64,000 bases of DNA from Chloranthus sessilifolius (taxonomy: Eukaryota > Streptophyta > Magnoliopsida > Chloranthales > Chloranthaceae). A program made the translations under genes and the position numbers. The stretch is taken from NCBI GenBank assembly GCA_021018995.1, contig CM037587.1:86921251-86985250 (forward strand), written 5' to 3'. The notes under the pieces are model-generated. The model saw only the letters and a list, made by a program, of their open reading frames with translations, ran no database searches and was not told where the DNA came from. Positions 7,472 to 64,000 of this stretch are shown in pieces (position 1 is the first letter of the stretch; each line of letters starts with the position of its first letter).

Positions 7472-7489
7472 ATTACCATATTTATTTAT

Positions 7490-7702
7490 TTTTTTTATAT
7501 ATAAATTATACTTAATTTTATAAAAATCTTATTTATTATTTTAAAATGACTGAGGCTAAAAAATGAAGTTCATTAAAATTTCAATAAAATTTCGATAATT
7601 TTGAAATTAATGAAATTTCAATGATTTCGGAGATATTACTAAAATTTCACCGAAAGTTTCATTCAGCCCCTGTTTTAGTGAAATTCTGAGATATTTATCA
7701 TT
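7490..7702 (+). repeat. Degenerate second copy of the 6644-6980 MITE (right half)
   Basis: The string CCGAAAGTTTC...CCCTGTTT..GTGAAATTC, followed by a decayed right end, matches 6860-6980 in the same orientation. The left half is missing or lost at the adjacent SINE insertion. Confidence 0.6.
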
Positions 7703-35900: not shown

Positions 35901-37826
35901 ATGTCAGCCAATTTTGATGAGTACGTGGGGATTAAAGTACATTAGGGTGATAAATTCATCAGTCGAAAAGGCCATAGTTGATATATTGGTGGGAAGTGCG
36001 AGGAGGTCGCATAGGATCTTGAGCGCATATCATACTTGGTCATGTTGACCGATGTGATACAAATATGCAGTTGCCGTAAGGAGTATATTTTGACTATTCA
36101 GTACATTCACAGGGGTACAACCCCCGGTGAGGAGTTGGTGACTGTTCTGACGAATAAGGACCTGATGTATATGTTTGAGAGACATAATATGAAGGAAACC
36201 ATCAACATCTATATCGACTATGAAGAACTTCCAGATCCACTTAACACATATCAGGCAGACATGGATATATCTGATGCAAACTATGAAGACGGAGAGTGTG
36301 GGGATAGTTTAGGCGATAATGCTACATCTATGGATGGAGGAACTAAAAGAAATTCAAAGCGAGCCGACAGGTGGTCTGATTATGAGGATCCTGAGGGTTA
36401 TGTCTCGTTCTTTAGTTCCGAAAGTGAGGATGAGATAAACGATGATGACAAAGATGTCGGTCTCGAGAGGGCTATTGTTAACGAGGAGAAGGCAAAACTG
36501 ATTTTACGAATCAGTATGATGTATGATTCAGTTTACGCATTTCGAGATGCATTGACCCATTTTGCGATGGTGCATGGGTTTCAGTTAGAGTACATAAAGA
36601 ATGAAAAGAGTAGAGTGACAACCAGAAGTGCGGATACAAATTGTCTTTGGAGGATCCACGCATCTATATATGATGATAATATGACATTCTGAGTCAAGAC
36701 ATATAAGGAAGAACATACATGTGAGAGATGCAATCGTAATGGGAACCAAATGGCAAGTGTGAGATGGATACCCCAACGAATTGAGGAACAAGTTCGTGAT
36801 GATCGGGAGGTGAAGATAAAGATGATAGCAAGACGTTTGTTCAGGGTTTATGGAGTATATATCCCATATCATCGCATATAGCATGGCAAGGAAATGGCCT
36901 TAGGATGAGTATATGGGTCTTTTGAAGATTCGTATAAAGTGCTCCCGTCCTTCTGCAATACAATACTCCAAACCAATCCGGGAAGTATTGTGAAACATAA
37001 ATTAGAAGAAGATGGGGCCTTTCAGAGGGTCTTTATTTGTCTCAATGTTTATCGCGTTGGACTCTTAAGTGATTGCCAACCCTTCATAGAATTGGATGGA
37101 TGCCATTTAAAGGATAAGTACAAGTGTTGCCTTCTAGCCGCAACATGTTTTGACGGGAATTGCAGATTATTTCCTTAGCGTATGCGATGGTTGAGATAGG
37201 AAATGAAGAGTGTTGGGGATGGTTTTTTGAGCATTTACAGTTGGCGATTGAATTTCCCAACAATCTCATTTTTATGTCAAATAGGCAGAAGGGCCTAATA
37301 AATATTGTAGCGAAGATATACCCTTATGCTGAACATAGGTGAGATGATTAACATTCAATATTATTCATTTTTGTCATGGTTTATTCATTGTTGACATTCA
37401 TTACGACATGCTAAAGAAAGTGTCATATTTTTCATTATCGGGAGATTTTTCATTCCTTGCTGGATAATTTTTTTTGGCCTCGATTGGATATTATCTGTAA
37501 ACCACCACAAGCGCGTCAGCCACCTGGCCGACTAAAGAAAAATAGAGGAGAGGGGAAGACGAGCAACCATCTACTCAGACCAAAGTACAGTCTTTGAAGA
37601 AATCTCTAATTGCAACAAGGGTAGGCACAATCGAACGAAATGCAAGGATCCTCCAGTTAGACGCTACCAAGAAAATGATGAGGGACCCTCAAGCATCTCT
37701 AGACGTGGCCTCGGTTCAAGCGGCCATGGACGTGAACGTGAACGTGGCTCGGCTTCAAGCAATTCTGAACGTGGCTCAACTTGAAGCAGCACTAGTCGTG
37801 GACCTGTTTGGGGTTGAAAGTTAGCT
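35901..37826 (+). pseudogene. MuDR-type MULE transposase pseudogene
   Basis: The reading begins at ATG 35901, with stops at 35943, 35979 and 36015, then an open stretch 36036-36692. It has an acidic linker and a DNA-binding-domain-like end (FRDALTHFAMVHGFQLEYIK). Further on, ASVRWIPQRIEEQ and the catalytic core DCQPFIELDGCHLKDKY (about 37074-37125) appear, then LAYAMVEIGNEECWGWFFEHL. The second catalytic aspartate normally found in SDRQ.GL is asparagine here (SNRQKGL, 37276-37296). The third catalytic region is missing after 37341. A degenerate zinc knuckle (CNK..RHNRTKC, about 37605-37640) and an RGRGRG-like tail end near 37824 in another frame. Stops and missing residues make it inactive. 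Confidence 0.9.
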
Positions 37827-42469: not shown

Positions 42470-43210
42470 ATGCCCTCACAGACGTGCGCAATTCGATTGC
42501 ACGCATGAATACATGCGCGTAATTAGTCCCACTTGGTCGAGACCCGCTCTTCCCGCAGACTTCCATAAGACTTGACTCTGTGCCCTGTACAACGCACACA
42601 ATTAGATTGCATGCCCCATCATCGACGCGTAATTGGTCCCACTTGGACCAGTCTTCTACCTTTCGTAGACCGCCTTGAGACTTGATTGCGCGCCCTCACC
42701 AGCGAGCGCAATCAATTGCGCGCCCCACCACCAGCACGCAATTGGTTCCCAATTAGACCCGGTCTCTAATTCTCATGAGCGCCCAAATTCCCCTATTAAG
42801 CACATGTAAGCATGTGCTTAATTGGATTGCATGCACTAAACAAGGCAGGCAATTAGTTCCAAGCGAACTGGAACTAGGACACCCGACTGAGCCATTCAGT
42901 CGGTCACTCCACTATAAAAAATAAGACTATTAGCGACAACCAAAAACTGCAGCTAATAACAAAAAACTACCGCTAATACTCTTGCTGCTAATAGTCATTG
43001 TAGCTTTTTTGTGAATAGCGGTAGTTTTTTATAGCAAAAAACTGCCACTAATAGTCTTATTTTTTGTAGTGCTCACTGAGTCGGTCACCGACTCAAAGTG
43101 TATTAAGCACATGAGACAAGGCGCGTAATTCAATTACACGCTCTCGACAGTGCATGTAATTGGATCTAACCGGCTAATTACGCACCTCCTACAAGGCGCG
43201 TAATTACCCG
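42470..43210. repeat. GCGCAATT/GCGTAATT motif cluster in the Tat-type LTR U3
   Basis: Variants include GTGCGCAATTCGATTGCACGC (42484-42504), GCGCGTAATTAGTCCCAC, CGCACACAATTAGATTGCATG, GCGCAATCAATTGCGCGCC and AAGGCGCGTAATT. At least ten copies are spaced irregularly, each a variation on a self-complementary word. The nested MITE is excluded. Confidence 0.75.
42910..43071. mobile_element. CACTA MITE 2 (162 bp, TSD CTC)
   Basis: It starts CACTATAAAAAATAAGACTA and ends TAGTCTTATTTTTTGTAGTG. It is flanked by CTC at 42907-42909 and 43072-43074. The inner text repeats AAAAACTGC.GCTAATA on both strands. Confidence 0.93.
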
Positions 43211-45074: not shown

Positions 45075-47136
45075 TGTAACAACTGAGACAATTCGACCCT
45101 CATTATTGTCACTCTGGATATTTACATGTGTCCAATGGCCGAGTGTAATCGACGCTTTGGGTTGAAACCGATCGCGGTAATTGAAATGCAAAATGTTCCA
45201 TTATAATAGAGTATATATAATAAATCATGTAGGTAATGACGCAGGCTCCTTGAGAGCACCACTAGTAAGGAGTTGAACTGGCAAACATAAGGTCATGGGA
45301 TCAAGACCAGCCATGAACATTGAACCCTTAGTTTTAGCATTTGTTTATAGGCCAGTACACCGCGTTTGATGTACCGATTGCACACCGAATCAAGACTCGT
45401 GGATATTGAAATTTCTCCCACGCATAAGCCATGCACAAATTTGGAGAAGCCAGTTCGTGGAAAAATATAACCGTGAAAAGACTTCCCTTCTCCTTTGGAA
45501 ACCCCAACTTTTGAAATCACAGCCACTCGATCTTTTCGAATCCTCGTCCATCACAAACTCAGACCAATAGAGCTTCGACCTCGACTTCATTATGATCAAA
45601 GTGAAGGAAGTTTGAACGATCAAACGATAGATTGCTTGTGCGTCAAGAATCTCTGCACCTATGATCGTAGAGCTTTGCATGCGCGAAAACTAGGAAGGTA
45701 ATCCTCATAATGCGACCACATGAATCTAGATTTCCAAAAGTAGGACTCGATCATCGAAGAAACTGAGTCATATGCAAAGGTTTTGGAGATTGGACGCGTG
45801 AGAGTCGCGAAATGCCGACATACCCTACGATCGATCACCGAAGTCCTTACATGTGAGCAAATATAAGGTAAGATGATGAATTAAATCAAATAAGATAGAT
45901 TTAGCATAGATTATAAGTAAATGAATACACTAAATTGTTGCCTTTCGAAATTAAGAAGGAAGAATTAAGTCTGAAAACTCAGAGTTCTGATGAACTCGCT
46001 CGAGCAACTTTGGAAGTTAGCTTGAGCGAGTAGTCCAGCAAACTTAAAACGAGCTGAGTTATAAGTAACTCGCTTGAGCGAGATTGGACCTCATGTGGCG
46101 AATCCCACACAAAGCACTTTCGCTCGGCGAGTGCAGATTAATTACAGGCTAAAGGCGATGGGGTAAAACATCGGCGAGTTTGAATTACATGAACTAGCTC
46201 GAGCGAGTTTGAAAGTAGCTCGAGTGAGTTCCCCTCTTCCAAAGGGGAGTGGAGTTTTCAAGAGAGGGATGAAGTCCTCAGTGTTTTCAAACCTTGTGTC
46301 TGCTATGGACTGCTCTATTCCTGCTATGGGATACTTTGAACTGATGTTTTTGTGTGATGATATGTTTCATTCTCCGATATATCTGTGCTCTGATTTATTT
46401 TGCTCTATGATATGTTCTGTACTCTGACATGCTCTCTGTTTTCTGATATATCCTTGCTCTGCCACACAATTGTCTCCGCATGTTTCTTGCATCATTACAT
46501 GACATTTTTTCTGATTCATATTTCTGAATCTAGTGTATGATTTTCTTTTATAAATGTGAGAGGTTTTTCATCAAATCTATTAAATAGAATGATAAATGTG
46601 ATTTTGCATTGACTTTTCCCTACTGAGCTTGGACTGTAGCTTATCCCTTGACTATACGTCCCACCTGCAGGTGTAGATCCAGGTGTGGATCTAGAGTTGG
46701 TTCCGGAGTTGTTAGAGGATCCTGATTTATTTCGAAGGAAGAAGAGGATCTACCACCTGACAAGTTCTATCCTCGACCTGCACTCATAGATCCGACATAG
46801 AGTGTTTTTAGCTTTTGATACTCGGTACATTATTAACACTAGACTTATGGAATTATGTACAACTGCACCACTATTTAGGTGACGGTCGGCCATCACTGGT
46901 GCTTTGTGTAGTTTTAGTTATACTTTGGACTGATGGAAAATCCTTTTTTGTTATGATGCCATTTGTTTTTTACCGCTTTGCTTCCGCAAAAAATGGAGAG
47001 ATTATAAATATGATCTAAAAGCAAAGTATTATACCGGTTGCCCAACTGACAAGGATCGATACGACTTCGCCCTGAGGATCTGTCATCGGAAGAGTGGCAA
47101 ATTCTTATAAATTTTTGGGGAATCTGAGGAGGGACA
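45075..47136 (-). mobile_element. LTR L3 (2062 bp) with mismatched flanks
   Basis: On the + strand it starts TGTAACAACTGAGACAATTCG and ends GGAATCTGAGGAGGGACA. In its own (minus) orientation it begins TGTCCCTCCTCAGATTCCCC, like L4's TGTCACGACACAGAATCC. The shared block GAGCTTGGACTGTAGCTTATCCCTTGACTATACGTC (46626-46661, given here as key words only) is the complement of the L1/L2 block. A palindromic CGCTCGAGCGAG cluster lies at 45998-46230. Left flank CATGG and right flank GGTAT differ. The left neighbour is the Tat protease and the right neighbour the En/Spm exons. Confidence 0.72.
45998..46230. repeat. CTCGAGCGAG palindromic cassette in L3
   Basis: Variants are AACTCGCTCGAGCAAC, TAGCTTGAGCGAGTAG, AACTCGCTTGAGCGAG, TTCGCTCGGCGAG, TAGCTCGAGCGAG and TAGCTCGAGTGAG, all within about 230 bases. 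Confidence 0.8.
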
Positions 47137-47229
47137 GGTATATATATTTTTATATTGAATCTTTATAATTTATTTATTTTGTATAATAAACTTGTAATCA
47201 TCAATCAATTCGTGCACTCCAAAAAAGAA

Positions 47230-48057
47230 CTGAAAGAAACAAGCGAAATCGGTCTTGTCAAAAATTGCACCATACAGCCGGTACCAAAAGCTTTGCGAGA
47301 GTACGACATGAAGAGGTAGGCTTTTAAGTTTTTGTTCAATTTATTTATTATATACCCCATTTTTTTTCAATCTTTGCCATTTACTAACTAAAGATTCATG
47401 GTTGACAGCAACTTAAGAGAGATAGTTCTACTCCGCCTGGTCGTGCAGAGGTATTTGTGATCACACACTATCACAAACATGGAACACCTATGAATGATTT
47501 GGCTGCAGAGAAGATCGTAAGTTCATGATATTTAGACTTTAATTATATATTGACCTTGTACAACTAGCATAACAAATAAAATATTAATGATTGTAGCAAG
47601 AGATTAAAGCTCGTTTACCAAAAGACGGTTCGGTGGACTCCACTGGTCCCAATGATGTGCACTCCAAAGTGTTTGGAGCGAAAGAAAAACTCTTGCGCGC
47701 TCGAGGTGTAGGATTGGTCCCTACTCCCACCAGTTTGTGGGGTCCTTCTACTGAAAGTGCATCATCTTCTACTGAATTTGTTGCAATGAAAGATAAAGTT
47801 CACATGTTAGAGGAGCAATTAAGGCAAAATTATGAACAACAGAAACAAAAGGATGCTGAAGTTGCAGAGAAATTGAAGCATAATGAAGCCAATATGGCAA
47901 AACTTATGAGCATAGTTGAGGCCATGTCGGGACAGGTATGTATAACGTTTTTGTCTTTCATTGCTGAAATGTTCTCTAAGTTTGTTCAAGGATATCTAAG
48001 TGACAAGTGTTCTTTCATATTGTGTAGCTTGGCGGCAATACTAATCCTGCTCCATAA
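47230..48057 (+). pseudogene. Ptta/En/Spm plant transposase-like gene, 3' exons
   Basis: I read four exons: about 47230-47315, 47409-47516, 47597-47935 and 48028-48057, with GT-AG introns and matching phases. The first has the Ptta signature NRSCQKLHHTAGTKSFARVR. The second encodes GRAEVFVITHYHKHGTPMND. The third gives VHSKVFGAKEKLLRARGVGL and then a coiled coil (HMLEEQLRQNYEQQKQKDAE...). The last codes LGGNTNPAP and a stop. Proteins with this domain are encoded by plant CACTA (En/Spm) transposons. The visible exons are fully open, unlike other TE genes here, but 5' exons are missing because LTR L3 lies immediately upstream. It could be a truncated transposon gene or a domesticated relic. Confidence 0.8.
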
Positions 48058-48382
48058 TCTTGAATGTAACTAGTAGTGGTCGAATTTTCTTTTTTACAAA
48101 TTGAATTAGACAAATGTTTGATCTCTTTTGGGATTGTTTAATTATGATTTCCGTTTTGAGAATGTTTTTGGGACTCAACTTCACTTGCTTTTATGGGATA
48201 TTATATCTCAGTTATATGTCTTGTCTTATCTCTGTGTATGAGCAATAACTATTTTAGAGTTTGAATATGAATGGTGTGCCTTTATCATATGATATCAAAT
48301 ACAAGGTAACTCATCTTCCTCCAAGTTGATTACTCATTTGTGCTCCAAGTTGGTGATTCAAAGAGCTCATTTTATCTTGCAG

Positions 48383-48797
48383 CTATTCGTTCTGCTAGCA
48401 GATTTAAAAACCCATGGTGAAGATGACGAGGCATTGAATGCAACAAAATATGAGAACGCTGTTGGGAGGAGGTAAGCGTATTTGTAGCCACTTTTCTAGA
48501 ATTTGGGAAATATAAAGGGGCAAATGAGTAAATGACACATATTAAAATATGGGATTTCATTCTTCTATTTGGGTGTGTATTGAATGTGCCCAAGCCATCT
48601 TTAACATTTCTTATATTTTCTCTTGCAATGTTTGTTTGATTGGGTTTAGGTTGTTGGATTCACGTAGACTAGAGATTCTAGCAGCAAGATATGTCAATAA
48701 GAAATTTTACCCTTTTGATGTCACTGTTATAATGAGTCTAGGCCAGATATTGACTCATGGATCTAAGTTAATGATGGGGTTTAGCTGTGTAAATTGG
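48383..48797 (+). pseudogene. Unrecognised host-like exon pair
   Basis: Exon 48383-48471 follows a TTTTATCTTGCAG acceptor and ends at a GTAAGC donor. The next exon starts at 48650 after GGGTTTAG. The join completes a codon exactly (phase 2 to 2), giving the residues LFVLLADLKTHGEDDEALNA, TKYENAVGRR and then LLDSRRLEILAARYV. The reading runs on to a stop at 48798. The sequence looks like a conserved folded protein, but I do not recognise it. No further exons were found on either side. Confidence 0.5.
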
Positions 48798-49435
48798 TGA
48801 AAAAGTAGCTTTACTTATGTAGTTTCATCCTACCAAAGCTTAGAGTATACTTTAGCTCTATGGGTTTTGGTACTTAAAATACTAAGGCAGCTTTCTATGT
48901 GTTGTTTTGAGTGACCTAAAACCCGAATTTTACCAAAATTGAGACCAAGAAAAACAGAGGTTAGAAATGGGATTTTAAATTGAAAATTAGTCAAATTTCG
49001 CCCTACATGTGAGGATTGACTCCACCAAATTCATAGCTAAAACCTGAAACTGATTTTATTTCTCTCATTTTCAGGAATACGTGTATAATCGGTTGCAATT
49101 CAGGTTCTTACTGCTTCTTTGCAACCCAAATTTTTGCTTTTCTAATTTTGTTTTACTAATACAATATTTTGATGAATTTGGTAAAATTATCTTTCCAGCT
49201 ATGGTTGGTACTTTACCTTTGTACAGAGCTTTGTCTATCTGTTTCTCATTTATGCTCAAGGTTTCACTAGAAAGCAGATGGTTAATCCATCAACCCACAT
49301 ATGTGAAGCTTTCTGCGGTTCTTATGGGATCTAACGGACTAACCAAAAGGTCATTAGCTTTTCTCAATTACCCTGCCCAGCTCATGTTCAAATCCACCAA
49401 GGTACATGCATTTATCATCTAAATTTGATTGAAAT

Positions 49436-52408
49436 TGTAATAACCCAGATTTTTGAATTTTATTTAATGGTATTAGATGATGTACCACACAGTGCGTGGT
49501 GCTAACGCTCCACACCGGAATATACCCACTTTAGAAATAGTCTGATTTTTTTTTTATATATCAATATTAGACTCATTGCGGAGTACTCGTCGATACGATT
49601 TCAACGATATATAATTTGTCGATTTTTGATAAGAATATAAAAAGTTATGCCCGTTTGAAGAGTGAAGCGGGTTAAAGGGCACAACTGTAAATTCGGGAGA
49701 GAATCACCATTTACCTTGGTAATTACACAAAGTGCTGGAGCAAAACCTCTTCTCAAGCTTTTCAAGTCACGTATGAATTCTACTTGCATGTAAAAACTAC
49801 TATTTTATTAAATCTTATACGGAAAGTCTTAATTAGAGTTAACCTATACAGGGAATTAGATATATATTTACTTCTTCTCTCAGTTGTCTCTCTTTATTCC
49901 CTCTTCTCTGTAAAAGCTCTAACAGTGCCATCTTTTATAATTCCTCGTCGGATCTCCATCGATTTTCGATCTTATCAGAGAATCTTACACCATCAAAGTT
50001 TCTCATCGCCGCGACCAATTTATCGTAAGAAAGGAATTCTCGCGAAAAGACTCGGGCATATCGTCTCTCGAATCCGATCTCCATCAACCCAAATCATCGT
50101 AGGATTCGAATCACACTTCAACAGGTGGGTGCCTCTAAATCCATCTTAAATTATTCAGTTATTTCTTAAAAAAGAAAACCCTAATTTTTCCTTAAATTTT
50201 GATAAATTCGGGTCTTAAAAATATAGAAATTAGGCCCAAAATCGATAGGATCGTTTTTCCCAGATTTTTGTGAAATTCGGCCAAACTCTTCAACAGACAC
50301 AGCCTCGGTATTTTGGCCATAATGTTTTATCTCGAACTCTGATTTACGTGATTCTTGTGGCACTGGAAAGAAGACAACGAGATCTACAACTTTGTCTGAA
50401 ATAGTAATTTCACAAATCTAATGTTTTTAAGGTCAAATTTAGGCTGCAAGTCGGAATACGTTTTAGATGATCCAAGGTACACGAGTTTGACATTATTTTT
50501 TTAAACTCTTGGGCTACTTTACGCTAAACTTATCTCTAGACTTATAAATCGCTAAAATTAAATAAAATATATTAAATAGCTAGCATCGAATAACAATCTA
50601 TAAGTTTAAGGGGTCAAATATTAACATTTTTAATACTTATCATTCTATTACCTCCTTTAAGCCTCATACAATCCTTGATTTGACACATGTGCTCCTTTAG
50701 AATTTTAAAATAGGTCGGATCGCTATATCAGTCAATCACCAAATTTCATGGATACAATTAACCCTAATGAAGTATAGTTTCAACTCTATTATAAATAAAT
50801 GTAGTTAAATATTTCTTATTTTCTGTTTTACTTTAATATTTCGTATGCTATGTTCTTTATTAATTTTCTTCATAAATATGAAATCTTTAAGGTTTATGCT
50901 ATAGTTCATTCTTATATATGTTCACCATTATCATATGACATTCATCATATAGAAAATCACGATAGGGCATACGTATATAAGTTAAGAATAAGATATGACA
51001 CATGACTTAAGCCTTCGTCACGGTGGGGTTTCTTTCACGGTCACGTGGAACTTGAAATGTACGCATCCATGTACGGATGCAACCCCTCTATGGTAGCATG
51101 AGATACCACACAAAGTACATTTAGGTTACTACGGAATCCGTCCCTTGGAAAACGTGGTTTAGTGAAGCCTATCGCACAGTGGCCCATTTTAACTAAGTTT
51201 TAAAAAAAATGAGAAAAAAATATGTTAAGACACATGTATGTTAAGAAAGTGGGGACTTAAGCCCATGCAAATATTAAATCGGGGCGGGGACCTAAGCCCA
51301 TATCCGAAAAATGATATGATATGTAAGACACGCTATGAAGGCCAGCTAAATATGAATTAAGTTTCTACACGTGTCATACCTTACGAGCCACCATAAGGGC
51401 CTAACGTCTGTAGCCAAGACGGGTCTTAAGGATATTATAGCCTTGTCTCGAACTAAGGGGACATCGTGGTTACTATACTGGCAACCTCATCTGGCTGGAT
51501 GACGGTTTATGTTATGATATGGAGGTTAGGTGGTTATCTACACGTGGACCTCGCGTGGTAGGCTCGAGCAGCGATCCTGGCACAGATCGTTTAAATAAGA
51601 TAAGATGTGAAGTACGTTGTGTAGGTGTATGGAGTAATTAATAAGACTTACGATATGTCACGTATGCTAAGTTGATGAGACAAATAGGAAAAGAGATAAG
51701 AAAATAGAAGCATCATGCACTCTTCATATTATATTAGTATATTTTTCAGTCTTGATTATGATAGTCTGAATTATGGATAAGTTTATTTCATTTATTTAAG
51801 ATGTTGGTTATATTTTAAAAATACATCGCAATTCAAGCGATTGCACACACGCCCACCTGAGTAAGTTATGGTGGATCGATTGTGCAACCCGCTGAGTTTA
51901 CGCGATTGAGTAAACTCACCCCCCTCCCAAAATCTAAGCCGGTGAAGATCGCTTATCCCGTCCTTGATGATTTGAAAGCTGCTGATCCGGAGATGGCTCA
52001 TATAAACAAGGATGTCGGCTATCACCTTGATGAGAGCGTAGATCCAGCAGATTTTTACCAGCATTGAGAACCCTTTTACTCTAGTTTTCATTATTTCTTG
52101 AGAGACTTGTTTTAGCCTTGATATATTGTGTGAGTTTGCATTTAAGACCGTTTTACCCTATCTGAAACTGATTTGGATTTGATATCCTAGATGCATGGTT
52201 AGGATTAAGTACTTCATTATTATTGTCTACGTTTTTCGTTATCAATTTATGAGTAAATTATTTTTAATGCTATCTTAAATGCCTCAATCCATATGCTAAG
52301 TTAATTTATAGATTATGTGTATGTCCGCTTATCACCTTAACCAGCGTGCGGTGTCATAACACAGAATTCTAGGCCCTCGATATCGGGTAAGGATTCTGTG
52401 TCGTGACA
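49436..52408 (-). mobile_element. Solo LTR L4 (2973 bp, TSD GAAAT) inside the UTR2-like intron
   Basis: The + strand starts TGTAATAACCCAGATTTTTG and ends GATTCTGTGTCGTGACA, flanked by GAAAT at 49431-49435 and 52409-52413. Comparison with L1 and L2 ends (GGTTATTACA) shows it lies on the minus strand, starting at 52408. It contains the conserved box CACTGGAAAGAAGACAACGA (50358-50377) and ATCTACAACTTT. No internal region is present. Confidence 0.93.
52353..52408. repeat. Terminal hairpin of L4
   Basis: TGTCATAACACAGAATTCTA (52353-52372) pairs imperfectly with AAGGATTCTGTGTCGTGACA (52389-52408) around a CCCTCGATATCGGG core, making a 56-base near-palindrome at the LTR start. Confidence 0.8.
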
Positions 52409-53059
52409 GAAATACTAGAGCTAATTGCCTGCTTTGCTGTAATTCGAACTTCTTTTATTGATTTATGTTTTAGTTAGAGTTATTTGTAATATATAAAGAA
52501 TTGAGTGTAAAAATTCAAAGAGAAGTCAAATTGGAGAAGGACTGCTTAATTCTCCCCCATTATAATTGAGCATGTTGTATTTTTCTTCAACAATTAGATG
52601 GTTGTTTTGAATTACTTAATTTTGCATAATTAAGTTGTTAGATTGGACTAATTCAGAAATTTTTTGGAGAGAATTCAGGTATTGCCAGTTATGATAATGG
52701 GGCCCTTCATTCTTGGACTTAGGCAAAAATACCCACTTCATGAATACATATTGGTAATACTTCTGGTAGTGGGTCTGATCCTATTCACATTGGCGGATGC
52801 CTAGAGTTCCCCAAATTTCAGTGTCATAGGGGTCGAGATAGTCTCTGGTGCTCTGGTCATGGATGCTTTCCTGGGTAATTTCCAAGAAGCCATCCTCACC
52901 ATGAATCCCGAAACCACACAGGTAATTTGCGTTGTTTGCTTTTGGTCCTTTTTTTTCCTCATGTTTTAGGTAATTGGCAATATGTAAGCAACAAATATGT
53001 GAAATAAATGTTACAGGTAGAGATGCTGTTCTGCTCAACTGTAGTTGGGCTACCATTCG

Positions 53060-53797
53060 GTAGAGTTTGCAGCCTAGAGAATTTAGAGATTGGTTCCCAT
53101 TTGTAGAACTAGGATCTGACTTTGAAGATTGGCATTTAATTTGATGGATATTAATATTTTATTTAAACTTTAGCAGCAAACGATGGTACTTAGCAACTGT
53201 CTTGTTACAATTGACTCAGCTATTGTCCTTTCGATTTTCTTGTTAGTTGACTTAGTTCACTTGTTGGTACTTGCTAGTGAAGTATCATTATTTAATTAAT
53301 AGCTACTTAATTATCTTGTATAATAATTTATTATAATTTTCAAAGTTTCCCCCTCACCACCTCAAGGCTACCCTCGCCTCATTAGGCGTAATGATTTTAA
53401 TAGAATTAAGTTTACTAGTTATGGTAGAATCCATCATTACTGATTACCAAGTTGATGAATTACCGATTTTGTTTTTACTAAAATTTATTTATTGATTCTT
53501 TTGAACAGGTATTAAGATTAATAACCTGATTATGTTAGACGTAAGAGGATAAGTTAAATCACCCAACTAAACGAAGCAAGCAAAAAAGAGCTCGGCAATT
53601 GACCGGAGATGGTGCAAATCGCACCTCTTGAAGAAAGCCTCTTTGGCGGATCAGTCTTAGCGGATGACGAATATTATATTTTTCAACTTTTATTTTTTAT
53701 TTTTTATTTTTTTATCCTTCACATATGTAATTGATACTTGAAGATTAAATTTTATATCCTTCACATGTAATTAATGTTTGATGATATAAATTTTTAA
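53060..53797. other. Flank of UTR2-like fragment, no exon found
   Basis: AT-rich. The expected continuation of the transporter (LTGE..RAW block) was not found. Confidence 0.45.
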
Positions 53798-53906
53798 GGT
53801 AAAAATGGTAGCTCTATTCGCACTTACAAAATTACTAAGTTTGCTTACCAGAATATTACCCTCAGTAAATTGGTGGGTGCAAATAGAGCTACCTAAAATT
53901 TTTTCC
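53798..53906. mobile_element. Short MITE with GGTAGCTCTATT.GCAC inverted ends
   Basis: GGTAGCTCTATTCGCAC (53808-53824) pairs with GTGCAAATAGAGCTACC (about 53877-53893) with one mismatch. The total is about 100 bases with an AT-rich centre. Confidence 0.6.
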
Positions 53907-53912
53907 CATTTT

Positions 53913-54233
53913 CACTACTGCCAGTTATAAACCGCCGCAAACTACTAACCCATCGGCGGTTCTTCACTGTCGTAAGCATCAATGCTTGCAAGGCATATTA
54001 GTAACATACCGGCCGTTCTAAACCGCCACAAAACCACCGGAAGTCTGATCATCGGCGGTTCGAAACCGCCGCCAGTTGTAATGCCTGGAGTTATACACCC
54101 TCATAAAACCGCTGGAATGACTTCCACCGGCAGTTTTAAACTGCCGCGAGAAGCTATCCTAGCTGCGCCGGCGGTTTTGTGCAGTTACAGCGGCAGTTGT
54201 CGGCCGCCGGGAAAACCTTTATTTTTTGTAGTG
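53913..54233. mobile_element. CACTA-like element 4, GC-rich (321 bp)
   Basis: It begins CACTACTGCCAGTTATAAAC and ends CCTTTATTTTTTGTAGTG. The inside carries many GCGGTTT/AAACCGCCG inverted words. Flanks TTT and AAG do not match, so a left-end rearrangement or false start is possible. Confidence 0.55.
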
Positions 54234-54315
54234 AAGCCACTAACACCAAACCTCGTGGTGTTAGTGAATCACATTGGGTGGACTATGGCTCATTTGAAAT
54301 TAAAGGGAACTCTAA

Positions 54316-54541
54316 GGCTGCATTTGGGTTAGCTCTTGTGGGGCAAAGAGCATGGCTCCCGCAGAAAACTACTTTTACATTTGGTAACACAACTCCTTGC
54401 CTCATTTGCTCTGCCAGGGAGCTATTTTAAGTGGATAAACTATTCTATGCCTGCTTTATCTCAGAGCATATTTTATCTGCTCCGACAGAGAGTAGACAAA
54501 GAGCTGCTTCTGCTCTTATAAGAGCTAACCCAAACACAGCG
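54316..54541. mobile_element. Tourist-like MITE (226 bp, TSD TAA)
   Basis: The left end GGCTGCATTTGGGTTAGCTC continues TT; the right end is its complement with two changes near the tip (AAGAGCTAACCCAAACACAGCG). It is flanked by TAA at 54313-54315 and 54542-54544. TWA duplications are typical of PIF/Harbinger MITEs. Confidence 0.85.
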
Positions 54542-54946
54542 TAAGGGCTCTTCCAATTAATTTATTTAAATTTATAAATTAAGAAAAAAAATTAAATAGA
54601 ATCTAGAAAATCTAGATCATTGATTATTAAGACCAAGGTTTGACCCATCTACCCTTGATTTGGGAGACTTGGAGGATCCCATGATTCTCCATGTTGACGC
54701 ACATTGATTAGGGTAGGAAATTTTTGGGCCATTGAATCCTTTTGACCCATTGTCTAGTGCATCTAGAACCATCCATTTGGTCCAAGCCAAGCAATGGTGA
54801 GAGATGCATTCGAACACATGCAACCACAAGATGGAGTGGAATCTTGACTTTCACTTGGAGATGGGGCATCAAAAGACCCAAAGTCCACAAGTGGACTGAA
54901 TTGACAGCTGAGATGGGTGGTCTGGGCGCCTCCCAAGATTCCCTCT

Positions 54947-54971
54947 CTCTCTCTCTCTCTCTTTCTCTCTC
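54947..54971. repeat. (CT)n microsatellite
   Basis: A CT run of about 24 bases with one interruption, upstream of a CACTA-like end. Confidence 0.9.
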
Positions 54972-54987
54972 TTCCACAATCAGATCA

Positions 54988-55250
54988 CACTACAAAAATA
55001 CCTTTTATTGGAGGCGGATATTGGAGACGGCTTTTAAAAACCGTCTCCAATAACCTTTTATTAGAGATGGCCTTTTCAAAAGCCGTCTCTAATAATTACA
55101 TTCGACCGTCTTTCTATATAAAATGTCACATGGAGACAACTTTAACCGTCTCCATAAGTTTCAGATGGGTGGAACCTTTATAGATGACTTGAAAGACCGC
55201 CTCTAAAAATCTCACTGAGATCAATAGAGACTACTGAAGCCGTCTCTCAA
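54988..55250. mobile_element. CACTA-like MITE 5, right end missing
   Basis: It starts CACTACAAAAATACCTTTTA, followed by inverted pairs such as GGAGACGGCTTTTAAAAACC/CGTCTCCAATAA and GAGATGGCC..AAAAGCCGTCTCTAA. No GTAGTG terminus was found before the next element at 55270. Confidence 0.6.
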
Positions 55251-55269
55251 ATGCACACCAAAATACCAT

Positions 55270-55707
55270 ATGGGTAGTGTTATATGCATCTATTTTCTTA
55301 TGGAGTACACATCTCTTCTCACCATAAATAATTATTGACTCTCTTGAATCAGAAGATGGAGACTATATTTCATCCCAATCTTCTACACAATAGATCTTGA
55401 GATCGTGTTGCCCCTATCAAACGGTCAAATTTTGATTTAACTTCCGCACATCCCCAAAAAAGTGACTTGATACCGTTTTCTCATGGTACGCATTAATCAC
55501 GATCACTTCTGGGAATGTGTGCCACATGAATTATAGACCCAACATGTGACTGTATGATAGGTGTGTCATGATCACAAGATCTATTGAGTGAGAGATTGGG
55601 ACGAAAAATGATCCATATCGTTGATTCAAATCACTCAACTAATTTTATGGTGGGAAAGCATGTGTTCTGCACAAAACAAATGGGTGCATATAACGCCACC
55701 CCTTTTT
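55270..55707. mobile_element. Fold-back MITE (~438 bp) with GGGT.GTGTTATATGCA ends
   Basis: The left end GGGTAGTGTTATATGCATCT and the complement of the right end (GGGTGGCGTTATATGCACCC) pair over about 40 bases. The internal arms resemble the 40045 family (GAATCAGAAGATGGAGAC..CATCCCAATC and complement). Target duplication not resolved. Confidence 0.65.
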
Positions 55708-55793
55708 TTAATTCTCACTCGACGGCAGCCTCTTGATGAGCGCTATCTATCTCTCTCTAAAAATAGCATCTCAGCCCCTCGATGAACCATGAT

Positions 55794-56546
55794 CTCTCTC
55801 TCTCTCTCTCTCTTCCTATATAAATACTAGATCAGAAAAAAAATCAGCCATTTCGTCGAGAGAAACTCAAAGCCATTTTGTCTTCTCGGCAAGTCTCTCC
55901 TTTCTCTTCTCCAGAAACTGAATAAACTCAAAAATCCTTAGATTTTGTTTCTATTCTCAACTCAGATCAGAGCATTTTTACTTCGATCCGTGCTTCGATA
56001 CAGAGATTTCAACAATTTCACCTCAATCCATGCTCCGACAAAGATTTCAGCCTTTACGATACATTTTGTTAGGGTTTTGTAAATTTTTGGAGCTTTTTTG
56101 GTGTGGAGGATTCAAGGAGAGGTCAGATTTCGGGAATGCGGTATAGAATTTGTGCAGAGTATTGAAAATGGAGCTTCATAGTGATTGAATCAACCCTAGA
56201 TTTGGTCAAACAATGAGGAATCGTATATTTTTTGACAATTGGAGAAATTAGGGGATTTTGAATCCGAGATTTGAGGAGAATCGACAAATTCATTTGATGT
56301 ACCGAGCTTCGAAAATGATTGTTGTTAAACGATAGGTGAGATCTGATTTTTATTGATTTGCTAAGTGAACGATTCATGCATTCTCGATTATTTAGGGTTT
56401 TAATTTTGTAATGACACAATTCACATGTTTTGAATTATTTAGGATTTCCGATTTATAGAGTTTTAATTGTTGTCAATGCAGGAACTTCATCATCGATGGG
56501 GCGATCTTCATCTTCCTTCTTCATCGTCTTTGCTATTCAATCAAAG
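55794..56546 (+). pseudogene. Promoter, 5' leader and short coding exon of an unidentified gene
   Basis: A CT microsatellite (55794-55812) precedes a TATA box TATATAAATA (55817-55826). A leader with TTCGTCGAGAGAAACTC..TTCTCTTCTCC text follows, and a GTGAGAT donor sits at about 56335. A second exon, 56482-56546, follows a TTGTCAATGCAG acceptor, contains ATGGGGCG at 56495 and reads MGRSSSSFFIVFAIQSK to a GTAGTG donor. The architecture is that of a plant gene start, but I do not recognise the product and no continuing exon was found before LTR L5. It may be a captured or truncated gene 5' end. Confidence 0.45.
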
Positions 56547-57168
56547 GTAGTGTTCTATCATTTGAGAAGCTTATTTTATACAGTCATGGATTATTTTTTT
56601 ATTTTTTCGAAAAAGATTCAAGGTAAAATTAGTTAACCTAACTGAAAATGCACATGATTCTGTATATTGGCATCGTTTTCGTGGAGATGGATACAATGGA
56701 CTTCGGAGGATGCCTATTGTTTTATGCAATGGATCTCCGTTTAGATACTCTTCATTGTCCCCAATTTTGAGCAAAATATTGAAAATGGAGCTTCGTAGTA
56801 ATGAATCGACCTTAGATTTGGTCAAAATATGAAGGTTGCTTAAAGTTGAGGACCGATAAGCCAAGAGAATCCACTAGTTGAGTTTTGATATGAGTAGGCT
56901 CAACATAGGGAATACTTGGGAGCAAGCGCTGGCACTAATATGGAGTTTTTAAAACCTTAATAGTGGGTGCTTTGGCAAGGAGAGGGGTAACGTAAACTGC
57001 AGCCCATGATTATTAATGAGATAAGAATCCCGTTAATTTTGTCATTGACCTATCAGTGACTCAAAATTCTGTGTTAGATCTTAAAGGTCAGCAGCGATAA
57101 TAACCCCTGCTTCTCTAAATTCTGAGTGAAGATTACTGCTCACTGGTTATATTTTCTAGTAAAATTTG
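56547..57168 (+). other. Intron-like, with a ~70-bp duplicate of the leader region
   Basis: 56763-56833 (TATTGAAAATGGAGCTTCGT...ATTTGGTCAAA) repeats 56148-56217 with about 85-90% identity by eye. No exon was found. Confidence 0.55.
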
Positions 57169-58049
57169 TGTAACGATCCCCAGATTTATACACTACAGTG
57201 GTAAGTGTTCGGTCAGGTCATGTGTGAGGACCTCACTAGGATAGCCCTTAAAATCTTAGAAGTTTGACTTCAAACTAGATACATACAAATGTATTAAGAT
57301 AAAAGATTAAACCATCTTATAAAGAATTAAATTCCAATATACCAGAAGTAGTATATGCACTTGATACTAAAGTTAAGCCATTTGGCATTAACTCTACCCG
57401 GTAGTAATATAACCAAGGAAAGCTGGATGGACTATTTGTAAATTATATAAAAGAACTTTTCTGTTTTGTTTTATATGGAATACTCTTATCTAGGTATACT
57501 AGATATATAGGAAGTTTATCTTAAGTAGCTTATAAGCTACTTGCATGGCTTATCGCGTACATGACTCCAATGAGTCATGTTCCGTTTACATGCATGCAAA
57601 ATGCAGGAAATCGTTATAAAACCCACAAACCAGACCATCATCTTCCTCCTTTGCTTAACCTTGAAAGGAAAACCTGCACATATGTCTATGAATCCAAGGA
57701 CACTATGGTCACCATATACCAATCCTAGCACAGCTTTGACAATTTCTGATACAAGTTAAGATCAGAGTATGTTCCATGATCCCACAATTTCAAGATTTAC
57801 AGTAGCATTTCGTTGTAACGATCTCATCATTCTCAACTCGGCAAAAACAGCATCGATGGTCGAGTGCTAACGATTCCCCAAAAGGTTAGTTAATTATTTA
57901 TCTTTATACAAAAGACTTGATCATAAAGAATTTCAGCTCAGAAATTAGCCTCAGCATGCAGTTGAATGCAGATCGTTGCACTCCAGATCTTCATTTAAGA
58001 TCTGTAAATAAGAAAAAAATAGATATATATATATATATATATGAAGATA

Positions 58050-58201
58050 CACTACAAAAAATAAGACTATTAGTGGCAGTTTTTTATAATAAAAAACTGC
58101 CGCTACAAAAATACTAGCGGCAGTTTTTTATAGCGACAAGACTAATAGCGGCAGTTTTTTATTAAAAAAAATTGCCGCTAATAGTCTTATTTTTTGTAGT
58201 G
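58050..58201. mobile_element. CACTA MITE 3 (152 bp, TSD ATA)
   Basis: It starts CACTACAAAAAATAAGACTA and ends TAGTCTTATTTTTTGTAGTG, a perfect inverted end. It is flanked by ATA at 58047-58049 and 58202-58204. The inner text alternates GCGGCAGTTTTTTAT and AAAAAACTGCCGC, so the whole element folds back. Confidence 0.95.
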
Positions 58202-58289
58202 ATAAATGTATAATAAACTATATATATATATATATATATATATGCAAAAAAAAGGAAGAAACAGCAGATAAAAAGGGCAAGAAAGAACT

Positions 58290-58400
58290 CAGTTGAAGCC
58301 CGGCAAGCCAGGCTTGCCGTGGCAACCTCAAGAGGTTGCTGCGGCAAGACACTCTGTTGAGTGGCTTGCCGCGGCAAGCCTTATGTGTTGCCGCGGCAAC
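58290..58400. repeat. TTGCCGCGGCAA palindromic cassette in L5
   Basis: It contains CGGCAAGCCAGGCTTGCCG (58301-58319), GTTGCTGCGGCAAG, CTTGCCGCGGCAAG (58366-58379) and GTTGCCGCGGCAAC (58387-58400). The last two are perfect palindromes. Further copies lie near 58590-58600. Confidence 0.85.
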
Positions 58401-59907
58401 TCTATGCTCAGACCATTGTGTGGTATTTCAGTCATAACTTTTGACTCCGAACTTCAAATGACACGATTCTTGATGCGTTGGAAAGGGGACAATGAGACCT
58501 ACAACTTTTATGAAGCAACTAAGTTCTAAATCTAATGTATAAAGGGTCAAAAAGTTGTAACAAGTCACAAAAACATGCAACTGCAAAGCTTGCCTCGGCA
58601 ACAGTATACTCAGACCACTGTATGATATTTTAATCATATCTTCTGACCCCGAACTCCGATTGATACGATTCTTGATGTGTTGGAAAGGGGACAACGAGCC
58701 CTACAACTATCATGAAGGAACAAATTTTTGAAGCCAACATTTAAGGGGTTAAAAAGTAGTAACACGCGGCAACCCTGCATCTTACACACTTGGCGACACC
58801 TCTGTCAGGGGTTTATGCTGGGATGACTTGCTAAGTTTGATCATGAGACTTGGGACCATAAATGGTCCATATTTGGGGTCTATGTTGACCCAATAAACCA
58901 TTAAAAATACTAAACCTATGAACAACATTTCTAGGTGCCATTTGGTACACATGACGCGTTTGCTTGAAGACGAGTGTGTACGGGAAACTAGTTATACGTA
59001 AACCTGGTGTAAGGTAGGGAGTTTACATTATTAATTTATATTTTATTTTCAAATTCATTCCTGATTAGCAAATTATAATTATGCCTATGTTAATTTAATC
59101 CATATGCTAGTTGTGCTAGTTCTGCTGAGGAATACTAAGCTATGATGATAGTAAGATCAAAGCCATATATGTTTATACCATGAATTTTGATGCTCGAACC
59201 ATGCTAGTTCAGCTCGATATAGGATTATTCTATGAATATATGTCAGCATGATAATCTTTGAATATAAAGGCAATTTTAAATGATAATTAGAAATTTATAA
59301 GGATGCCAATTAATTTTGTTGATGACAAACGCATGTGATAATGTCAGTTTGCATAATGAACTCATGTCAGTTGGGATGGATATGATACTAATGAATTCAT
59401 TATTGATTTATGGTTAAGGGATGATGCTCAAATATATAGTGATAAATGGATAATACTCTCTCAGTTCAGAGGAATGGTTCTGATTAATAATGATCATGTA
59501 TTGCTCATGTATAATCGTGTATAATAATCATGGATAGAGATAGATGAATTTATGAATCATGATAAAATGAATATGCTAATTTCAGTTTAAATAAATACCT
59601 TTGCATGACTATGCTCGTGTTAAGTTTTGATGAATAAATATGCATGATAAGGATTCAAGCAGTGTACTGTAGGATTATTAGGCTAATTCAGTTAGATGTG
59701 TGATTATAAATGATGATACGATAAGTTATGTACAAATGATGATAAGATCAGTTTCAACGCATGAATACGAATAGTTATGCAAACTCAGTGATACTAGTTC
59801 AGTTTTGCTATATCATATCTATTCATGATGTTCTTGCATATATATTAGCATGCATTGTTCATGTTCTGTTATCCTTGATATCATGTGCACGTCTTTAATT
59901 CATCTTG

Positions 59908-60053
59908 AAACAAGTGATCCCGCTAACTCGGGAGCTTGATATCCCGTCCAAGTGATCCCGCTAACTCGGGAGCTTGATATCCCGTCCAAGTGATCCCTTC
60001 TTTCGGAGTTTGACAAGTGATCCGCTTCTTTCGGGAGCTTGATTTTCTTGTTT
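59908..60053. repeat. 40-bp tandem array in L5 (~3.5 copies)
   Basis: AAGTGATCCCGCTAACTCGG followed by GAGCTTGATATCCCGTCC is repeated exactly twice, then twice in degraded form with TTCTTTCGG replacing CTAACTCGG. Confidence 0.92.
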
Positions 60054-60751
60054 TTTGTTCTTGTACATGTCTTGTTTCAGCATGATTCATTGATCTCGCC
60101 TGATTCCTTGTCAGCATGAATATGTCAGCATTGTCAGCATGATACAATAATTGTATGATTTAGTGCTTGTTCTGTTATATACTGCTAGGATATATGGATG
60201 CTAGAATAGACCTAATATAAGATGACATGTGTTTCGTTTTATTTTTCATCTAGACATGAATGGATAATCTAACATATAAATTAGCATTTTAATTTTTCCT
60301 GCTGAACTTTGATGATAGCTCATCCTACGACTTTATGTCTTAGCTGCAGATATTGCTCAAGACCCTGAGCACGAAGCTGATCCTACCTACCAGTCTGACG
60401 AGGAGGACGAGGACGAGGAGGAAGGTTCTACTGAGGACCTCTTTCCTTGAGAGGTTTGGGAGAGATAGAGATTTATTTTTAAACATTAAATATGTATGAA
60501 CAGCAGTGTAAGTTAAGATAGTTTACTACTTGAGGTATAGGTTTCTGTTTATATTTCCTGTTCAATTTACTGCTTTAGATAAAGGAATGAATATCAGTTG
60601 TTGCCATATATCTTTGTATCAGAGTTAATTAAATTCGCTTTCGCATATATAACACTTTGTACACGATGCCCTTGTATGACAGGATCATGTTAGGTGATCC
60701 GACGACGCGACCTTTCCCATTTACGAGAGGGGGAAAAGTCAGGTTGTCACA

Positions 60752-61683
60752 ATTTGTGATTAAAAAAGCTGCTAATTAGTGTGTTGATAGAAACACACCT
60801 AATGCCAGAGATGTTTATAGCAGTAGTAGAGGCCCAGCAGCAGATTAGTAGAGAATAGTAGCAGTAATAACACAAAGCAATCCATTTTTTAAAGGTTTGT
60901 TGATGTTAAATGTAATGGAATTTTCTATGGGTTTGTGTTTCATATATGTTTAGAGTTACGCAGATAAGATGTATGATATATTTCCTTAATGAAGAAAAAT
61001 GCAATAAAATTATAAATCATGCCTTAGATAACTGAAAGTATACATCATGGTGATCTAAAAATGATGTACTTTTATCTTTCAGCCTTGAAAATGAAAATGT
61101 GTTGGGTAAAGTTCTAGTGTTAATTACAAAAGCCTGCCACATTAAACAAGCTAAATTATTTATAAACTCGATTTTTTTGTGGATTTCTATCAGCTTTTGA
61201 AGCTTTGCATGATTTCTATTCAGAACTCATCTAGATTTAGTTTTTTGCATGAATTTTGTTCAGAACTGATCTAGATTTAGTATTTACTTATATAAAAATA
61301 TAGGATCCTTTTGTATAGGAGTTTAGGAGATCTTGCAGAGAACTTATCTTTTAGTAAATTTTCTACTTACATATGGTATAATAAAAGATAAACAATTGAG
61401 CATATGATCTGTTTTAGTTTCCATCTCTTATTGTGCTTATTTTTGCATGAATGATGCTTTTTTTGTTGCCATCATATTATTCTGATGACTTTATACTTGG
61501 AATTTGGAAGGAGGATGATCAATTTCTCGAGTATCAAAATGTGTTGTTTTCTCATCTAGTTTTTCATAGACACACACACACATCTCTCCATCTCTCTTTA
61601 AATATTCATCTTCGGTTCATCTGTTCTTTAAAGTTGAAAGAGGATATAACTCAATTTATATATTATATTTGTTGTTGTTGCAG
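60752..61683 (+). other. Intron-like sequence upstream of the ERD2 exon
   Basis: No exon recognised. A ~37-base duplication (TGCATG.ATTT..TTCAGAACT.ATCTAGATTTAG) lies at 61207-61280. A poly-pyrimidine/GTTGTTGTTGCAG acceptor ends the region. Confidence 0.5.
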
Positions 61684-61799
61684 ATCTTTTGGACATTTTC
61701 TATATACTTAGAAGCAATGGCTATTCTTCCTCAATTGGTTTTGCTACAAAGGAGTGGAAATGTGGACAATCTGGCTGGGCAATATGTTTTCTTTCTTGG
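61684..61799 (+). pseudogene. Single exon of an ER lumen (KDEL) retention receptor gene, ERD2-like
   Basis: The exon lies between a TTGCAG acceptor and a GGTATT donor. It encodes IFWTFSIYLEAMAILPQLVL then LQRSGNVDNLAGQYVFFLG, matching the conserved (E)VLWTFSLYLEAVAILPQLVLLQR..N.DNLTGQYVFLLG segment of plant ERD2. This seven-helix Golgi/ER receptor retrieves KDEL proteins. It is 116 bases with no stop. None of the other ERD2 exons (N-terminal helices, or the YRALYILNWIYRYF block that should follow) was seen. LTR L6 starts 421 bases downstream, so later exons could lie beyond the window, but the upstream exons are not present in the preceding kilobases outside L5. Confidence 0.8.
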
Positions 61800-62220
61800 G
61801 TATTATGGTTGATTTCTCATTATATGTTTCCTAATTCTGATCAATAGCTCCCCTTTTGGAATAATCATGATTATTAGTTGTTAATTTTACTACCTATTGT
61901 TCCTCTTCATTAAACAGAAATGGATTGTGAATAGTATTAGTGCCTTACTATTGAATATATTTATTGTAAATGATCTCGAGAATGTAATTTTATTACTGAG
62001 TTTAAGTCTTCATTTATTGACCACAAACTTGGTTCATAGATATCAACAATATGCATAGGTGGGTCTATGCCAGGGTTCACTGATTGTAGAGTAAACCAAA
62101 AAGGTAGTAGTAATGTTTATAAAGACTCATATTTTTGGACTTGAATCAGATTGACCCTGTGTACATATTCGGCTCGGCAACTGACATTGTCATTTGTTTG
62201 GATTTTTATCTAGATGTGAT
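61800..62220. other. Intron-like, no exon seen
   Basis: AT-rich; the sequence after the ERD2 exon donor up to LTR L6. Confidence 0.45.
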
Positions 62221-64000
62221 TGTACAGACAGATTCTGATTTTGAGCCGTTTGGACCCTTGTGCGAAAGTCGTGTACCGACCTCAGTGTGGCCGCTCAACA
62301 CCGGACCTAAGTTATTGGAATTAGAAGTTTAACACACTAAGGTGTGTGCGTGCTTAACATATTGAGCAACCCTTTTATAAGAGGAATGGTATTCTCGTAT
62401 GCTTTACGTTAAGGCCTTCAAAAATTTATTTGCTTAGAGAGAAAGAGGAGACGAGATCCATACGCCGGAAAACTTAGCTGCGTTTTGAGTTGTTTGATCA
62501 TTACAAAACTTTGCCTTTATCGTGCTACCGATTGTGAGATCTATTTTGTGAAACCTTTTCTCTAAATCCTTTTTTGTTTGAGATCCATAAACATATGGCA
62601 AGATTGAATCAACCCTTGGATGCTTTTTCGACGATTGGAAAAGGTTGAGATCATTGGGAATGAATAGAAGTGATTCTAGTGAATTCATAGGAGCGATCGA
62701 GGCGCGGATTGTCGAGGAAATCTGCCGATTTTGTTTTGAAACTCCGTTTGCGTGACTCATTTCAAAGAGTGGAATCCTTGATTAAAGGTATGATTTTTAT
62801 TGTGTTTAAGGTTTAGAATCAATAGATTAAACTTAGGTTTTATTTTGGGAATGTGTGGGATTCGATTCAGGTAAAAACGAGGCAAAAAATCGCATCGCTC
62901 GAGCGAGGACAGAACTTAATTTTTGTCCTCATTTTCGTTTTCTTTCCGATACTGTCTTTGTATTTTATCTATAACTTTTTACTCTGCACTCCGATTAACA
63001 TGATTCATTTTGCGTTGGAAAGAGAACAGCTAACTCTACAACTTTTGTATTTTGACCAATTCGTGAATTAATCGTTTTGAAGGTTAAAAAATTAGAGGAA
63101 GGTTACGTCAAATTCTATGTTGGCACAAACTTGTCTGTTTCGACTCGATTTTGAGGAAACACATAAATAGGTCTAAATTATTAGTGATTAGATTTAACCT
63201 TGACGCATCGTCGTATATTTGTGATATAGATTAAGGGTGAGAGGCCATCAATAGGATTTTGCTTGGCTCTGCGCAACTCCAAGTTTTGATAGGAGAATCT
63301 CATCTTTACAGTATTTTATTTTAACACCCATGGATATTTTGAATTAGAATCTTTGAACTTACATATGCCATTAAAATCACATCTATAAACTGAAATTTGG
63401 GATGAAAAACTAAAAATCCGAATCTACCTGAACCCTGAAACCTGAATCTGCTTAAGCTATGAAATGCTAAAAATCTAAAATCAAGAATTTGAACTATATA
63501 TAAGAAACTTGCGTCTGATTTATATTGATATCTGCATCTGTTTTATGATTGGCCTGAACGACCCCTCAAAAATTCCTGAACTACTTCCTGACACAAATTT
63601 CCCTCATGACGTAGGGGTTTGTTGCATCCTGAAAAATGGTTCATGAACGACACTGGTAGGTACTAATATGGGTTCCCATCGGCTATATTCTTGATCTTGA
63701 GATATAGTTTATTCGGGAGGTATTTTAAGTTGAAGATTAAGTTATGAATTACTGAACTTTACATATAGAAATTAGAGGCACTAAGACACTGAAATTCTGT
63801 ATTATTCTTGAATCTGTTTTCACATATTTAGAACTTTATCTTGCATATAATTTCTGCACTTAAATTCTGTTTTTACCTGCATTTATGGTTTTGACATATA
63901 AGATTTTGATACTTGTTTTGAAACCCATATTAGTTAAAATACAATGTCGTTGATGATATTTTTCTACTGAGCTTTGTTGGTTAGCTCACTCCGACTATCG
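62221..64000 (-). mobile_element. LTR L6, running off the window
   Basis: The + strand starts TGTACAGACAGATTCTGATT, comparable with the left ends of L3, L4 and L5 in the same orientation, and is preceded by GTGAT. It contains the GCATCGCTCGAGCGAGG palindrome (62893-62909) and the conserved box GCGTTGGAAAGAGAACAGC with CTCTACAACTTTT (63014-63050). The block CTACTGAGCTTTGTTGGTTA at 63964 is shared with L3 and L5. The right end is outside, so solo or complete status cannot be told. Confidence 0.72.

Follow-up and report, generated by a model that had tools for sequence, protein, structure and literature searches.

Very probable side-by-side CACTA elements with different captured cargo in Chloranthus sessilifolius, one of them a Pack-CACTA carrying a piece of an ERD2 gene

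The window described here is a 64,000-nucleotide stretch of the Chloranthus sessilifolius genome (C4:86921251-86985250), which was compared with the 2.17-Gb assembly. Its right-hand part very probably holds two non-autonomous CACTA elements side by side with different cargo, the second being a Pack-CACTA composed of a promoter-like leader, a segment termed segment X and a piece of an ERD2 gene from C8, to which one sub-family adds the first exon of a gene from C6. The two neighbours have the same + orientation and are separated by 754 bp (ends at 54233 and 54988). Element 1 (46988-54233) lacks its 5' part and consists of Transposase_24 exons, a UTR2/UAA segment and a CACTA 3' end. Element 2 (54988-62118) consists of the leader, segment X and the ERD2 fragment and continues past a retrotransposon to at least C4:86994485; both elements are delimited by sibling comparison. 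The evidence comprises the 5' end of element 2, one complete sibling that shows both ends and a 3-bp duplication, the parent loci, two joins and the copies. The host fragments identified in this region (UTR2, ERD2 and a second gene beyond the window end) are all sense to their element, bearing out the original prediction that the fragments lie on the + strand.

Results

Element 2 starts at 54988 with an exact CACTA end (CACTACAAAAATACC), and its first part (54988-56828, +) contains the terminal inverted repeat (TIR), TTGGAGACGG repeats, a CT-rich tract and the leader exons, placed by sibling matches and by eye. The assignment of this stretch to the 5' terminus of a CACTA family rests on a search with 54985-57100 (107 matches; the best 40 of 8715 first-look candidates were scored). 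At least 28 loci besides the window match from query bases 1-5, i.e. within 3 bases of 54988, and at least 10 rows end exactly at 56828. Landmarks read by eye are TATATAAA at 55817, an intron at about 56336-56481 and an ATG at 56496. The CT-rich tract and the two-exon leader are common to six aligned copies, the window included; four of them retain the TATATAAA box, which is replaced by CATAAA in C1 and C5:17.86M. The 5' end is reached in four of the six siblings, all starting at the position equivalent to 54988, two of them with an altered opening hexamer (CAATAC in C1, GACTAC in C5:46.57M). The region around 55800-56546 had been read as the 5' end of a host gene with its own TATA box; that candidate (55.8-56.5 kb) is rejected in favor of the CACTA family's own leader, common to those 28 or more loci. 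One of the four host-gene fragments first proposed is thus a transposon leader, and the gene pieces themselves are real.

A splice from the window exon 56496-56546 to 61684 would put the leader ATG exon in frame with the ERD2 exon (M..K, then IFWTFSIYLEAMA..). The six copies give no sign of frame retention: a stop interrupts the leader exon in one of them, a 13-bp deletion affects a second, and a third carries a 3-bp insertion at the exon end. At C13:6225100-6229595, three tandem copies of part of the leader and the start of segment X are found without ERD2, possibly a pre-capture stage.

The window copy is split by a solo long terminal repeat (LTR), and blast against the fetched loci shows 54988-57170 and 60751-62118 to be one sequence. 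The leader and the ERD2 exon belong to one element, since all six sibling copies (C1, C2, two on C5, C8 and C11) run through without the LTR. The exon itself, predicted earlier as a lone ERD2 exon, is real (61684-61799; PF00810, 56 bits, cut-off 25.6) and shares its element with the leader instead of standing separately. Between them lies segment X (56829-61065, +, interrupted by the LTR at 57169-60751), which is also present at C9:41651787 and at other loci without ERD2. At least eight rows without ERD2 (C9:41651787 and seven more) end at query base 668-669, and the match to the ERD2 parent starts at 667.

The captured segment of ERD2, a member of the KDEL-receptor family, spans 61066-62118 (+), resumes at C4:86994029 and comprises an intron and the one coding exon. 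The PF00810 family occurs at 19 places in the genome, the window exon included. The parent is C8:111557068-111558257, with 92.1% identity over 1044 aligned bases (92-93% for the C8 source); a stop-free ERD2 exon is located about 14 kb before the parent match in the same orientation (C8:111543101). Four copies (window, C1, C5:17.86M and C11) have an ERD2 part that stops no more than 3 bases from parent base 111558257 and then pass into the first exon of the second gene, of which C11 has the first few dozen bases only. In the window copy this second fragment lies beyond the window end (C4:86994064-86994485). Its parent is C6:88322040 (89% identity), where the next exon is recognized by eye. We take the second gene to resemble the chloroplast protein BFA3/CGLD11, a name that no search confirms; against Pfam, PDB sequences and NCBIfam it gives matches of E 0.2 or worse only. 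The ERD2 part of the C5:46.57M, C8:108.9M and C2 copies runs on to parent base 111558463-111558486, where different sequence follows. At the joins, TAC is common to both sources between segment X and ERD2, and ATTTT between ERD2 and the second gene. A six-frame Pfam scan of the C1 copy (4425 bp, its 3' end not found) reports ER_lumen_recept only, in sense, and no transposase.

The sibling on C11 is complete, with a length of 4638 bp, inverted ends and CAA on both sides. Its 5' end is CACTACAAAAAAACC (CACTACAAAAAAACCTTTTATTGGAGACGG) and its 3' end ..TTTTTTGTAATA, and the two agree at 23 of 30 positions when aligned without gaps. An earlier candidate for the 3' end (5010) is dropped for 4839, which matches the 5' terminal 30 bp; CAA follows both. 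CACTA-type TIRs are present exactly at 54988 in the window and at both ends in C11, and the CAA/CAA pair is the 3-bp duplication. Allowing one mismatch, TTGGAGACGG or its complement occurs at 13 sites in a 4809-bp C11 stretch, against 0.15 expected from shuffles, a contrast somewhat overstated by the motif having been picked by eye from the ends. Six of these sites lie in the first 220 bp and seven from 4353 on, with none between, so that the subterminal repeats of this copy are confined to its ends. CACTA termini with a 3-bp duplication, proposed earlier as a check around the whole run, are found in a complete sibling of element 2; a single pair enclosing the run is not supported. A pattern search finds no 3' end in the C1, C5:17.86M and C5:46.57M copies, the sole C5:46.57M match falling inside segment X.

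At least eight ERD2-bearing copies are found, including that of the window. The Kimura two-parameter (K2P) distances among seven of them, all except C6:90392326, are 0.020-0.064, and each copy is at 0.070-0.084 from the C8 parent. One capture followed by spread is indicated because the seven copies are closer to each other than to the parent, and to judge by these distances the family appears to have dispersed over several chromosomes after that single event.

Further cargo is present near the siblings. In the C8:108.9M copy, a zf-UDP domain (106.8 bits) follows ERD2 in a block common with the C2 copy at 97%; this zinc finger is of the type known from cellulose synthase. A G-beta piece on C8 lies beyond the block common with C2, and its membership in the element is not established; the WD40 model gives 30.0 bits for the piece alone and 23.8 in the whole-frame scan (cut-off 27), and WD40_Gbeta gives 55.9 and 49.9 bits, below the model cut-off of 150 as expected of a fragment. 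On C13, an Oxysterol_BP piece is placed in sense about 2.9 kb behind the leader (30.9 bits whole-frame, cut-off 28.9) and probably lies inside the element, the 3' end of that copy not having been reached. An LRR piece scores over the cut-off alone (29.2 bits) and under it in the whole-frame scan (16.4 bits). Everything reported by six-frame scans of five sibling loci at E 0.01 is sense and nothing antisense, in a sample that is small and not random; zf-UDP and Oxysterol_BP are over their cut-offs, and the WD40 models, zf-RING_4, LRR_8 and DUF7744 under. Six-frame Pfam scans give DUF7744 only for locus L036 (18.0 of 27 bits) and nothing for L047.

The transposase exons belong to element 1, which ends at 54233. 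They were predicted as Ptta/En/Spm exons, and a hand splice of 46988-48060 (+, 5' exons missing, X at a stop) reaches 34.7 bits with Transposase_24 (PF03004; cut-off 28.7), in agreement with that assignment; exon 47597-48073 by itself has no PF03004 match in a Pfam scan. A genome search with 48060-49440 gives 57 matches (best 40 of 100 candidates scored). The sibling at C7:66.83M (L041) covers 46988-48585, 48579-49434, 52409-52572, 53186-53313 and 53388-53464 of the window and begins with CAATACAAAATAATGGGC, a CACTA-like 5' end with one change in CACTAC. It holds Transposase_24 only as sub-cut-off pieces of 17.3 and 18.8 bits, and a six-frame Pfam scan reports no other transposase in it at E 0.01 (antisense frames given for 3400-6417 only). 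A second sibling at C7:33.29M (L047/L048) covers 48048-48557, 48967-49167 and 53461-53898, has different sequence in the middle and ends ..TTATTTTGTAGTG (..GGCCGCCAGGATAAGCCTGTTATTTTGTAGTG), resembling the window end at 54233. In 3 kb fetched there for the 5' end, the match to L041 is limited to the last 151 bases. CACTA ends of element 1 are accordingly seen at the 3' side in the window and C7:33.29M and at the 5' side in C7:66.83M, never both in one copy read.

The 3' terminal region of element 1 (53929-54233, +) is marked by subterminal AAACCGCCG repeats together with the end seen in the sibling. With one mismatch allowed, all 10 sites of 46988-54233 fall within 53929-54169, where base shuffles give 0.49 expected, the motif having been picked by eye from its own end region. 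The missing 5' part is not found elsewhere in the window, except for a short, 65-80% identical dispersed repeat. A short inverted repeat, GGTAGCTCTATTCGCAC..GTGCAAATAGAGCTACC, is located at 53804-53897 in element 1 and recurs in L047/L048. An exon-like pair at about 48380-48700 (+), also found in siblings L032 and L034, is not convincingly matched by any entry of Pfam, the PDB sequences or NCBIfam (best E 0.2 or worse). The piece 48579-49081 is also contained in a different composite (L033, L036-L040). The similarity between its copies, their ends not reached, is about 96-98% and extends over up to 3.5 kb for the widest pairs, which marks the composite as an apparently young vehicle for this captured piece.

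The cargo of element 1 is a UTR2/UAA segment that retains its introns (49076-53058, +), with exons read by eye at about 49076-49104, 49200-49402, 52679-52921 and 53017-53058. PF08449 gives 29.7 bits in one Pfam scan and 83 bits in another (cut-off 26.2), upholding the earlier view of this part as the middle of a UTR2-like transporter. A frameshift and a stop, both seen by eye, interrupt the reading frame, and the breakpoint at 53058 lies within an exon. The sequence 52642-53058 is matched at 91-92% by C6:33835592, C11:69091555 and C11:96923771, and partly by five more distant rows; all eight rows end at 53057-53058. Of the parents that the original prediction had called for, those of ERD2 (C8) and the second gene (C6) are found, but for UTR2 there are candidates only, C6:33.83M or C11:69.09M.

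Both elements are interrupted by later insertions. Two large solo LTRs had been predicted and are delimited here by 5-bp target-site duplications, the first in element 1 (49436-52408; GAAAT), with an empty site in sibling L041, and the second in element 2 (57169-60751; ATTTG), absent from six of six sibling copies. A later LTR retrotransposon of about 10.7 kb, whose left part occupies 62119-64000, ends near C4:86994028; it splits the ERD2 segment at 62118, with ERD2 resuming at C4:86994029 and TAATG repeated. The window sequence 62130-63998 matches L009 at 6107-8380 in direct orientation, in pieces.

Elsewhere in the window, CACTA-like ends leading into sequence that resembles TAAGACTATTAGCGG or close variants of it mark small elements at 42910-43071, 58050-58201 (the latter inside the second solo LTR) and 23175 to about 23345, probably a miniature CACTA family. 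The CACTACAAAAA pair at 23175(+)/39561(-) is rejected as a 16-kb element, as 23175 starts one of these small elements of about 170 bp. The region 9079-11799 (+) is a likely host gene with VARLMGL (32.7 bits) and DUF4378 (81 bits) matches in Pfam, which we take to be TRM/LONGIFOLIA-like, and 36015-36692 (+) contains the remains of a MuDR-type transposase (DBD_Tnp_Mut, 43.3 bits).

Discussion

Gene capture by a CACTA element, as first proposed for this DNA, is backed by the CACTA ends, the 3-bp duplication of one sibling, the subterminal repeats, the parents elsewhere (C8 and C6) and the dispersed copies. A number of observations weigh against the assignment. The C11 sibling is the only complete copy read, its 3' end is TATTAC instead of CACTAC (two changes), and a second candidate 3' end (TAGTG) lies 171 bp further on with CAA after it too, any 3-bp match having a 1 in 64 chance. 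For element 2 in the window, no 3' end is found within the following 30 kb, no autonomous partner was identified, and the joins were examined at two junctions only. Element 1 is without a 5' end in the window, and no two-ended sibling of it was read.

This last point, together with the mosaic make-up of element 1, whose piece 48579-49081 recurs in the L033/L036-L040 composite as seen in Helitrons, would suit a Helitron or other carrier, the end at 54233 then belonging to a separate small adjoining element. Such an origin is unlikely, as the order is preserved in the C7:33.29M sibling, where a CCGCCG-rich 3' end of this kind comes after 53461-53898, as the 5' terminus of the C7:66.83M sibling is CACTA-like and matches that 3' end, and as element 1 contains a CACTA-type transposase domain.

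The original prediction had one CACTA enclosing the whole run behind the transposase. A single large element from transposase to ERD2, or two elements moved as one composite, would accord with the same orientation and the 754-bp spacing, and paired local insertions in the same orientation are reported for Pack-TYPE elements in the available part of PMC8903248. Either arrangement is very unlikely, because the run is broken internally by the 3' end at 54233 and a new 5' end at 54988, the two elements have distinct subterminal motifs (AAACCGCCG versus TTGGAGACGG), their siblings are at different loci (by eye, among the matches listed) and the transposase exons are absent from the ERD2 element as scanned in the C1 copy. 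That the fragments are the decayed remains of whole local genes, as retained introns and intact exon order might suggest, is scarcely credible given their recurrence in dispersed copies with common outer limits, the ERD2/second-gene join at the same place in several copies and the better preserved source loci elsewhere.

With two adjacent CACTA elements as the preferred arrangement, the cargo may have been assembled piece by piece, through switches into host DNA at sites of short matching sequence while the element was being repaired or replicated, and the finished element would then have spread by transposase that an intact relative supplied in trans. Transcripts initiated in the leader could be spliced to the captured exons. 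More speculatively, and in our view improbably, the leader would serve as a mobile promoter supplying a start codon, kept through recurrent template switching while sense cargo is swapped, making the family an exon-trap for chimeric host-gene transcripts.

Pack-CACTA elements of Arabidopsis and maize are reportedly the subject of work by Catoni et al. in 2019. The Pack-CACTA family of element 2 is new, but the kind of exon shuffling that it exemplifies is known, and it is close to Tgm-Express1 of soybean. As far as the available text of PMC1947982 goes, Tgm-Express1 is a CACTA element with five intron-bearing gene fragments in 5.7 kb that gives chimeric transcripts. The two have in common CACTA ends and several unrelated gene fragments with exons and introns in one element (PMC1947982, in part), with splice sites usable in chimeric transcripts, in element 2 as judged by sequence alone. 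Unlike what that text describes for Tgm-Express1, the present element, a sequence-level finding, is a multi-copy family with other cargo, whose parents and joins are mapped in one genome. The accessible portion of PMC8903248 describes Pack-CACTA elements whose cargo stems from several loci; those of Arabidopsis and maize are likewise non-autonomous, with CACTACAA ends and cargo from more than one locus, whereas here the cargo is intron-bearing and kilobase-sized and sub-families combine the same leader with different 3' cargo. The CACTA elements of Chenopodium, as presented in part of PMC8978399, resemble element 1 in bearing Transposase_24 and captured fragments, but their fragments lie 5' of the coding sequence and that of element 1 lies 3' of the Transposase_24 exons. 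Animal Pack-TIRs show breakpoint microhomology and multicopy spread, for which the consulted section of PMC8277862 proposes a template switching model; element 2 shares the short common sequence at breakpoints and the multicopy state, in a plant instead of an animal, and template switching would be the corresponding step here. A limited literature search on CACTA gene capture found no KDEL receptor among the papers listed. With the source loci, two joins, a complete sibling and cargo-swapped sub-families all in one genome, the order of capture and spread becomes readable.

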